DNA of 36,852 nucleotides, from assembly GCA_002719815.1 (NCBI GenBank), contig PBET01000033.1, positions 1 to 36,852 of the forward strand. The letters run 5' to 3'. This document shows, piece after piece, positions 15,760-21,434 of this stretch (positions are counted from its first letter, which is position 1; each line of letters opens with the position of its first letter). The notes under the pieces are model-generated. The model searched no databases and was not told the DNA's origin. It saw only the letters and a program-made list of their open reading frames with translations. Origin of the DNA: Methanobacteriota archaeon (GTDB lineage: Archaea > Thermoplasmatota > Poseidoniia > Poseidoniales > Poseidoniaceae). The translations under genes were made by a program, and so were the position numbers.

Positions 15760-16371
15760 TCAGACTGGAACAGCTCGAATCAATCCTCGGAGTGGAACAT
15801 CGTCGACTTCGTTTCGTACGGTCTTATTGACGAGAACAAGTGCGAGGACAACTTCACCACCAGAAGCACGGATGGCTGCAATCGTGTTGCTCATCGTTAC
15901 GCCAGTCGAGAGTACATCGTCGATAATCACGACCTTCTTTCCGCCTCCGACTTGACCATACTTGTTCGAAAGTGCTACAGCCCCTGGCTCGCCATCGACA
16001 TTACGATGGATTGCAACTTCAACATCGAGTGCTTGAGCAACTTCGTGTGCAAAAGCAATACCATTGATGGAAATGCCGACCACAGTGTCCACTTCTTCCG
16101 TTTCTTCCATAACAACATCGGCCATGATGTCGCCGATTGCTGTTATTCGTGCAGGTCGAACACCGATGGTTCTCCAACCGATGCGAACATCGGTTGGACG
16201 TTCAGAGGTTGAATCTGTGAGGAGCCATTGAATCGTATCTTGAGAGAGCGATAATTCATCTGCAATCTGTTGCGAATTCAAGCCATCTTTTCGCAAATTT
16301 CTGACGATGGTTTTCAATTCATCAATACCCATTTCCATGTTATCGTGTTGGGCGAGTGCACCGACCTCCAT
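15760..16371 (-). CDS. gfcR: GfcR-like regulator: HTH plus phosphoribosyltransferase domain
   Basis: The N-terminal ~55 residues form a helix-turn-helix (DELKTIVRNLRKDGLNSQQI, ADELSLSQDTIQWLLT). The rest is a type I PRTase fold ending in the PRPP-binding loop VVIIDDVLSTGVTM. This architecture matches the archaeal GfcR/orotate-PRTase-like regulators. In haloarchaea GfcR activates sugar-catabolism genes. Whether this protein senses PRPP or catalyses a reaction is not shown by sequence. The start could be the ATG at 16371 (203 residues) or Met12, which directly precedes the HTH. It is divergent from aIF2-beta with 58 bp between them and lies just upstream of lysS. Confidence 0.85.
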   Translation of the reverse strand: MEVGALAQHDNMEMGIDELKTIVRNLRKDGLNSQQIADELSLSQDTIQWLLTDSTSERPTDVRIGWRTIGVRPARITAIGDIMADVVMEETEEVDTVVGISINGIAFAHEVAQALDVEVAIHRNVDGEPGAVALSNKYGQVGGGKKVVIIDDVLSTGVTMSNTIAAIRASGGEVVLALVLVNKTVRNEVDDVPLRGLIRAVPV

Positions 16372-19384: not shown

Positions 19385-20086
19385 TCACTCCGGTTGAACC
19401 AAGGTTCCTTCGAATGGCCGTCCTTCCAATGCATCTTCAATTCGACGGATATCTCGACCATCGAGCACGCCAATTCTCAACCCGCATTCAATTGCCCATT
19501 GAACGGCAATAGGGTCAACTGCAGCGCTTTGACCAGGATCAAGAGCCTCTTTCCCTGTAATCTCTTGAAGTTCTGAAAGCGTGAGCATGTCAATCGGCTC
19601 AGCGTCATCATTGGTACGGGGATCTGCTGTGTATACGTGCGATACATTGGTTGCAATGATGACATTTGCAGCACCTGAATCCCGAGCGAAGGCTACACTC
19701 ACCGCATCGGTGGTATGGCCTGGTTTGGTCCCGCCCATCACAACAACATCAAATCGTTCGAAGAGTGTAGCAGCAGTATCGGTACTTGTTGGAACAACAT
19801 CCGCTACGTTGCAGCCGATTTCTGCCAACATCGTTTGAAGGATTGTTGCATTCAACCGTGTTGCAGCAATGCCGATTTCATCGAGTTGATATCGGTCTTT
19901 GACAAGATGTTCTGCCAGTTGAATCCCATCTCGTGCAGGTTTTCCCCCACCAATGACCAAACCGATTTTGCGTCCATTCCCTTCGAGATGAACAATGGTC
20001 TGTCGAAGTTGACCGAGCCATGTCTTGACATCATGGTCGCCATAGAGGAGCGAGCCTCCCAATGCGATGATGGCTGGTGCGACCAT
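19385..20086 (-). CDS. pyrH: UMP kinase (archaeal type)
   Basis: PyrH phosphorylates UMP to UDP with ATP, the first step from UMP to all pyrimidine nucleotides. The 233-residue protein has the amino-acid-kinase fold with ALGGSLL at the N-terminus, the nucleotide loop IGLVIGGGKPARDG, the UMP-site segment EIGIAATRLNATIL, VVMGGTKPGHTTDAVS, and ATNVSHVYTADPRTNDDAEP followed by PGQSAAVDPIAVQ. Length and motifs are archaeal rather than bacterial. The ATG at 20084-20086 lies inside a long inverted repeat, and a TATA-like CATAAG lies about 27 nt upstream. The DUF2116-like gene follows by 4 nt. Confidence 0.95.
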   Translation of the reverse strand: MVAPAIIALGGSLLYGDHDVKTWLGQLRQTIVHLEGNGRKIGLVIGGGKPARDGIQLAEHLVKDRYQLDEIGIAATRLNATILQTMLAEIGCNVADVVPTSTDTAATLFERFDVVVMGGTKPGHTTDAVSVAFARDSGAANVIIATNVSHVYTADPRTNDDAEPIDMLTLSELQEITGKEALDPGQSAAVDPIAVQWAIECGLRIGVLDGRDIRRIEDALEGRPFEGTLVQPE

Positions 20087-20116
20087 AGAAACGCCTCGAC
20101 AAGGCGTTTCTTATGG
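20083..20116 (-). promoter_or_regulatory. 14-bp inverted repeat covering the pyrH start codon and TATA-like element
   Basis: On the plus strand the left arm CCATAGAAACGCCT pairs with AGGCGTTTC-(t)-TATGG across a CGACA loop. This gives 14 pairs with one bulged base. In pyrH mRNA the 3' arm contains the start codon ATG, so the stem could block translation. If the transcript is leaderless, the same sequence would be a DNA operator spanning the CATAAG TATA-like element to the start site. Confidence 0.6.
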
Positions 20117-20159
20117 CTTGTCCTACGAAATTCAAGGCGAGAGTTGAAAACCCTTGGTC

Positions 20160-20182
20160 CGACCCCAACAGACAGGGGGTCG
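20160..20182 (+). promoter_or_regulatory. Inverted repeat masking the likely prf1 ribosome-binding site
   Basis: CGACCCC pairs with GGGGTCG across a 9-nt loop. The 3' arm is the only Shine-Dalgarno-like sequence near prf1 and ends 4 nt before the GTG start at 20187. It could act as an RBS-masking hairpin. An operator role is the alternative. Confidence 0.45.
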
Positions 20183-20186
20183 AAAC

Positions 20187-21434
20187 GTGTCAGATGATGG
20201 TGAACTCGCAACGCGTCGGCTTCGCCTCAAACTTGCGCTTGAGGACCTGCGAGAAATGAAGGGGTTTGGTACTGAACTCGTCACGGTTATTATTCCGCCA
20301 GACCGACAAATTAGTGATGCTCGTTCATTGCTTCAAAATGAGCATGGGCAGGCAGCCAACATTAAGTCCAAGTCCACTCGAAAGAATGTACAAGGGGCGA
20401 TTGAATCAGCAATATCGTCGCTCTCTCGTTTCAAAACACCCGGAGAGCGAGGCATTGCTCTGTTTACAGGGGCGATTATTGTTGGTAATAATAAGACACG
20501 GCAAACAACCGTCGTCATCGATGATCCTCCTCAGGAATTGCTTTCATTCCGTTATCGATGCGACTCAACGTTCGAATTAACGCAACTTGAGGATATGCTC
20601 GTCGATAAGCGGTCCTATGGTTTGTTTGTCATCGATCGTTCTGAAGCAGCGTATGGTATCGCCTCAGGAAAACGGATTCACGTTCAGGAGCATCTCGTTT
20701 CCAACATTATGGGCAAACACCGACAAGGAGGTCAGTCTGCCCAACGTTTTGAGCGATTGATCGAAGAAGCGGCTCATAATTTCTTTAAGCGAGCGACTGA
20801 ACACGCATGTTCCTATTGGCTTCCGAATCTCGAAAACATTCAGGCCATCATTATCGGTGGGCCAGGGGCAACCAAGGACTATGTTGTTCGCAATGATTAC
20901 TTCCATCATGAAATTGCTAAAAAAATTGCTAAGACGCATTTCGATGTTGGTTATTCCAACGAATCTGGCGTTCGTGAACTTGTCGATAATGCGGGTGCAT
21001 TGATGGGTGAGATTGAATTGGATGCTGAGCGGCAAATCATGAATCGATTCCTAGCTGAATTGATCAAACCTCAGCCACGAGCAACCTACGGTGAGATGAT
21101 GCTACGTCAGGCGCTTGAACAGGGTGCAGTCGATACACTCCTCATCTCTGAGAATATGCGAAAGAATTCAGTGGAAATCGAATGCGGAGGCTGCGGTCAT
21201 ACGTGGACTGCATCGGTTGCTCGGACCGAGGAACTTCCAGAATGCCCTTCATGTGGAGTAAGTAATGACTCACATAAGGAACTATCCAACATCTCTTTGA
21301 TCGATGTTCTCAGTGAAATGGCTGCAAAATCAAACAGTGAAATTGCGTTCATTTCAATCGATACTGAAGAAGGTGCACAACTTGCACATGGTTTTGGCGG
21401 CCTCGCTGCAATCCTTCGTTATCCAATGATGTGA
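20187..21434 (+). CDS. prf1: Peptide chain release factor aRF1
   Basis: aRF1 recognises all three stop codons and triggers peptide release. From the GTG at 20187 the product is 415 residues, the usual length. The TTG at 20154 used in the ORF track adds 11 residues without support. Domain 1 has NIKS at 58-61 and the YxCxxxF stop-codon motif as YRCDSTF at 123-129. Domain 2 has GGQ at 181-183 (GKHRQGGQSAQRF). Domain 3 carries a small Cys4 element (ECGGCGHTW and ECPSCGVS), like other archaeal homologues. argS begins 9 nt after the stop, so the two are probably co-transcribed. Confidence 0.97.
   Translation: MSDDGELATRRLRLKLALEDLREMKGFGTELVTVIIPPDRQISDARSLLQNEHGQAANIKSKSTRKNVQGAIESAISSLSRFKTPGERGIALFTGAIIVGNNKTRQTTVVIDDPPQELLSFRYRCDSTFELTQLEDMLVDKRSYGLFVIDRSEAAYGIASGKRIHVQEHLVSNIMGKHRQGGQSAQRFERLIEEAAHNFFKRATEHACSYWLPNLENIQAIIIGGPGATKDYVVRNDYFHHEIAKKIAKTHFDVGYSNESGVRELVDNAGALMGEIELDAERQIMNRFLAELIKPQPRATYGEMMLRQALEQGAVDTLLISENMRKNSVEIECGGCGHTWTASVARTEELPECPSCGVSNDSHKELSNISLIDVLSEMAAKSNSEIAFISIDTEEGAQLAHGFGGLAAILRYPMM

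Follow-up and report, generated by a model that had tools for sequence, protein, structure and literature searches.

The start codon of pyrH is enclosed in a long inverted repeat, which raises the question of whether the repeat acts as RNA, by burying the start codon in a hairpin, or as DNA, by placing an operator over the core promoter. Both readings had been offered in a first-pass annotation of the window (the whole 36,852-nt stretch analysed here). The features on which the answer depends are listed in Table 1.

Table 1. Features at the pyrH start and their positions in the window
Feature	Position	Strand	Evidence or variation
pyrH, archaeal UMP kinase	19385..20086	-	TIGR02076, 182.1 bits (cut-off 158); PF00696
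aRF-1 (peptide chain release factor, prf1), divergent neighbour	20187..21434	+	TIGR03676
Whole inverted repeat, 14 bp, one bulge (20112), loop 20097-20101	20083..20116	-	Direct reading and repeat search; DNA fold -13.4 kcal/mol
TATA/BRE-like element AAGCCATAAGAAAC, overlapping the 5' arm	20106..20119	-	Matrix score 5.14, offset +1
Predicted transcription start, on ATG	20085..20086	-	Inferred from motif offset
26-nt block, -39 to -14, containing the 5' arm	20100..20125	-	Identical in all 13 clade A congeners
Inner half-site CGCCT (-20 to -16)	20102..20106	-	Unchanged throughout clade A (13 genomes)
Inner half-site AGGCG (-10 to -6)	20092..20096	-	AGGC kept in all 19 congeners
Outer 3' arm TTTCT (-5 to -1)	20087..20091	-	Variable at -5, -4 and -1; pairs broken in four congeners

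Structure and rarity of the inverted repeat

The minus strand from 20116 to 20083 reads CCATAAGAAACGCCT-TGTCG-AGGCGTTTCTATGG. The stem contains 10 perfect pairs (20087-20096 with 20102-20111) around the 5-nt loop, and beyond the one-base bulge it continues with 4 pairs that include the ATG (20086-20084) and base 20083. The annotation had described a 14-bp stem with one bulge and a 5-nt loop, reaching from the pyrH ATG to a TATA-like CATAAG, and both its coordinates and its structure were confirmed.

Genome-wide counts covered 1.22 of the 1.57 Mb of the genome, taken as stretches. Perfect repeats of at least 10 bp with a loop of 3-8 nt occurred 14 times, compared with 10 in a dinucleotide simulation; the 10-bp core alone is thus not rare genome-wide. 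Among 483 start-codon regions (-34 to +6, predicted starts), the pyrH repeat ranked first with a score of 12.5, the runner-up scoring 9.0. By this scoring, which was chosen after the repeat had been seen, 0.016 such repeats are expected by chance among the 483 regions; a mere positional coincidence is unlikely, even though the scoring is post hoc. The pattern GAAACGCC-N3..11-GGCGTTTC had no second copy anywhere in the genome, which rules out a dispersed repeat. Two contigs of the source assembly carry identical sites at a constant offset of 5419 bases, which suggests a duplicated stretch or a redundant assembly.

Predicted leaderless promoter of pyrH

Across the genome, upstream regions exhibit T-rich and then A-rich peaks between -29 and -23 and have a pyrimidine at -1; GG forms a peak of its own at -9/-8. 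A promoter matrix (consensus AAGnRTTSAARA) was trained on the upstream regions of the same genome that have no Shine-Dalgarno match, a set of several hundred sequences that may include the pyrH region itself as one of them. Strong matches to this matrix peak at offset 0, that is to say, with the A of the ATG as the transcription start and the TATA/BRE approximately 29 nt before the ATG. A second pile of matches, for leadered genes, lies 12-14 nt further upstream. By the matrix, the genome shows many putatively leaderless genes.

A TATA/BRE-like motif is located one base from this leaderless position before pyrH, and its score is equalled or exceeded at 0.75% of random genome positions. No conserved alternative TATA was found with the matrix upstream of this motif. 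A motif of at least the same score lies no more than 2 nt from the leaderless offset at pyrH in 25 of the 28 scored Poseidoniales genomes (21 of 23 in the sister family and 4 of 5 in other genera of the same family; three genomes, in which the pyrH start codon was not resolved, were left unscored), and two further records of the same family scored 3.7 and 4.8. In 6 congeners (clade B, described below), the score at the leaderless position was below 2.4, so that the element is weak there. Judged by these position statistics, pyrH is most likely leaderless, with the 5' arm of the repeat serving as its predicted, untranscribed TATA/BRE element. Since the 5' arm coincides with the TATA/BRE at the leaderless offset, transcription should begin at the ATG and leave the 5' arm outside the transcript.

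This layout, which pyrH shows in most of the order, bears directly on the proposal that a hairpin in a pyrH leader buries the start codon and controls translation. The predicted RNA fold of the repeat region is stable (-25.9 kcal/mol, z = -2.9), and a GAGG at -11 to -8, inside the 3' arm, could be a weak ribosome-binding site. Against this, the two arms would not lie in one transcript if the predicted promoter is used, and no Rfam family reached its threshold in the window.

With CCATAGAAACGCC on the plus strand as well, the near-symmetry of the repeat could also be taken for a bidirectional promoter; alternatively, the repeat could be a plus-strand terminator that keeps antisense transcription out of prf1. 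CCATA(A)GAAACGCC occurs on both strands and the neighbouring genes are divergent, which speaks for such a role. However, prf1 has a TATA-like TTGAAAA of its own at 20144-20150, present in all congeners; the plus-strand copy is the decaying arm; and the plus-strand hairpin has no clear U-run after it. We regard either role as highly improbable. prf1 has in addition an inverted repeat of its own, CGACCCC-N9-GGGGTCG (20160-20182), which several congeners have in shortened or broken form. Its right arm includes a likely Shine-Dalgarno sequence, GGGGG, directly before the GTG start, and most of its left arm precedes the predicted transcription start. The aRF-1 start codon is GTG, TTG or ATG among the congeners.

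Variation of the repeat within the genus

The pyrH tree divides the congeners into clade A (13, the source genome included) and clade B (6), and the dividing branch is fully supported. In clade A, changes in the 3' arm were never accompanied by a change in the 5' arm, and the loop positions -13 and -12 were variable. At least five separate pair-breaking changes, counted by hand on the pyrH tree, were found with no compensatory change; 9 of the 14 stem pairs were broken in some congener, and no stem pair had changes on both sides. The first-pass annotation had named the comparison of relatives' pyrH upstream regions as the check on the stem. In that comparison, the 5' arm was conserved in the 13 clade A genomes, and compensatory changes were absent from the stem. 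For the RNA hairpin, this means 13 distinct sequences free of compensation, one-sided breaks in four congeners and loss of the stem in the 6 of clade B. Together with the promoter position, the missing compensation leads us to reject the start-codon RNA switch, which we consider very unlikely.

The inner part of the repeat behaved differently from its outer pairs. The dyad CGCCT-N5-AGGCG was invariant in all 13 clade A genomes. In clade B, the repeat was absent in the clade A register, and a dyad of GCCTA-N14-TAGGC or longer (5 to 7 bp) was found, composed of an outer left half-site, CGCCTA, and the same right half-site, TAGGC. The left half-site lies 11 bp, or one helical turn, further out than in clade A. 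The single doubly changed pair of the clade B dyad is A-T in 2 distinct sequences, T-A in 2 and a mismatch in 1, which is no excess over shuffled controls. The inner dyad is invariant in 13 congeners, differently spaced in 6 and absent from other genera, and an order-wide palindrome at pyrH was not found (2 of 20 sister-family promoters below p = 0.02).

Conservation extends into the spacer between the TATA and the start codon. In clade A, identity was 92% in the spacer (-21 to -1) and 100% in the TATA block, compared with 44% at the four-fold sites of pyrH. The spacers of five other promoters (four with leaderless-type motifs in the same region, and pyrE) had identities of 39-69%. The dut spacer, at 90%, was as conserved as that of pyrH; the aIF-2 beta region reached 79%, although part of it may be coding sequence or a Shine-Dalgarno site, and the spacer of prf1, a leadered promoter, 76%. 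The excess over the four-fold sites and over the five promoters argues that some function beyond the TATA acts on the pyrH spacer, though such conservation is not unique to pyrH.

A leaderless core promoter alone, in which basal strength accounts for the conservation of the TATA/BRE and an initiator spacer and the clade A symmetry is incidental, would involve no regulator. It shares all the evidence for the leaderless promoter, and it predicts what was seen in the arms, namely that every one-sided pair-breaking change lies in the 3' arm, while the 5' arm, the only one that would matter, stays unchanged. The absence of the repeat from the clade B register and from other genera fits it as well, as does the failure to find a regulon (described below). 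It is less easily reconciled with the small number of such repeats expected among start regions and with clade A conservation that extends beyond the TATA to -6, exceeding most other leaderless promoters tested. We judge it a serious alternative, somewhat short of even probability.

A candidate operator and its known counterparts

The reading that we prefer, at about even probability, is that the repeat is the DNA-level core promoter of a leaderless pyrH, probably overlapped by the operator of a dimeric repressor. TBP and TFB would bind the 5' arm (AAGCCATAAGAA), and RNA polymerase would start at or beside the A of the ATG, so that the 5' arm would never enter the mRNA. A dimeric repressor bound to the half-sites CGCCT and AGGCG, between the TATA and the start, would keep the initiation complex from assembling. 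Motif position and spacer constraint are computed; from both we infer leaderless transcription, and the repressor, its dimeric state and its effector are postulated. The annotation's interpretation is supported in part, its operator over the core promoter being plausible but unproven. Four observations point to an operator: (i) the pyrH repeat is an outlier among start regions; (ii) the spacer is conserved; (iii) the inner dyad is invariant in 13 congeners; and (iv) a dyad with similar half-sites is shifted in the other 6. On the other side, the invariance of the inner dyad in clade A yields no covariation evidence, the outer pairs decay, and the motif before pyrH matches the matrix weakly, which also tells against the combined reading. 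A lineage-specific pyrH operator, confined to one genus, is possible, with the chances for and against it about equal.

With up to 1 mismatch allowed, copies of the inner dyad near genes did not exceed permuted controls in the 1.22 Mb, and no regulon was found. This lowers the operator claim and does not exclude it, because single-target operators exist. An element shared with other pyrimidine genes was rejected on the evidence of pyrE, which no CGCCT/AGGCG dyad precedes; for pyrG and pyrB, the automatic start choices were often wrong. The pyrE promoter of some congeners carries CCCAAC-N8-GTTGGG around a TATA-like motif; the right half, GTTGGG, is lost in others.

The search for a regulator of the pyrH dyad found none. 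At 15760-16371, 3.7 kb from pyrH, the window encodes an orotate phosphoribosyltransferase-like protein that exceeds the cut-off of NF002620 and belongs to the GfcR group; it may be a transcription regulator. A dedicated nucleotide-sensing repressor, such as this GfcR-like protein, might bind the dyad and tune pyrH, with the two clades differing by one helical turn in half-site spacing, but we consider this very unlikely. The upstream region of the GfcR-like gene contains neither CGCCT nor AGGCG, and nothing ties the protein to the pyrH dyad. Literature searches on the control of pyrH in archaea, on GfcR and on promoters in Poseidoniales yielded nothing specific.

These results remove a proposed start-codon RNA switch, and for an uncultured genus of marine archaea they supply a consensus, obtained by computation, of the leaderless promoter. 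They also single out pyrH as a gene with promoter conservation that goes further than the basal elements, so that in vitro binding could be used to test pyrimidine control in Poseidoniales.

Nothing at pyrH is outside the known kinds of archaeal promoter control. The NrpR operators of methanogens are short palindromes between the TATA and the transcription start, with a different sequence and a nitrogen regulon. In Haloferax volcanii, 72% of protein-coding transcripts are leaderless, with starts mapped by dRNA-Seq (PMC4983044). The placement of the TATA/BRE for a transcription start on the start codon is alike in the two, whereas the TATA/BRE consensus differs, the pyrH start is predicted only, and no dyad is described there for Haloferax volcanii. 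EnfR and LrpA act at positions like that of the pyrH dyad and thus provide published precedent for the mechanism of the candidate operator. At the codh cluster of Thermococcus onnurineus, EnfR recognizes a pseudo-palindrome that lies over a TATA-like box and has its centre at -21 relative to the start codon (PMC10570040). The inverted repeat at pyrH likewise lies over a TATA-like box near a start codon, but the EnfR operator is 36 bp long, was shown by footprinting and is unrelated in sequence. In LrpA autoregulation in Pyrococcus furiosus, the repressor site adjoins the TATA box on its downstream side, and RNA polymerase is blocked (PMC2995911). The candidate pyrH operator similarly lies beside the downstream side of the TATA; by contrast, the LrpA site was shown biochemically, the sequences are unrelated, and no Lrp protein is linked to the pyrH site.
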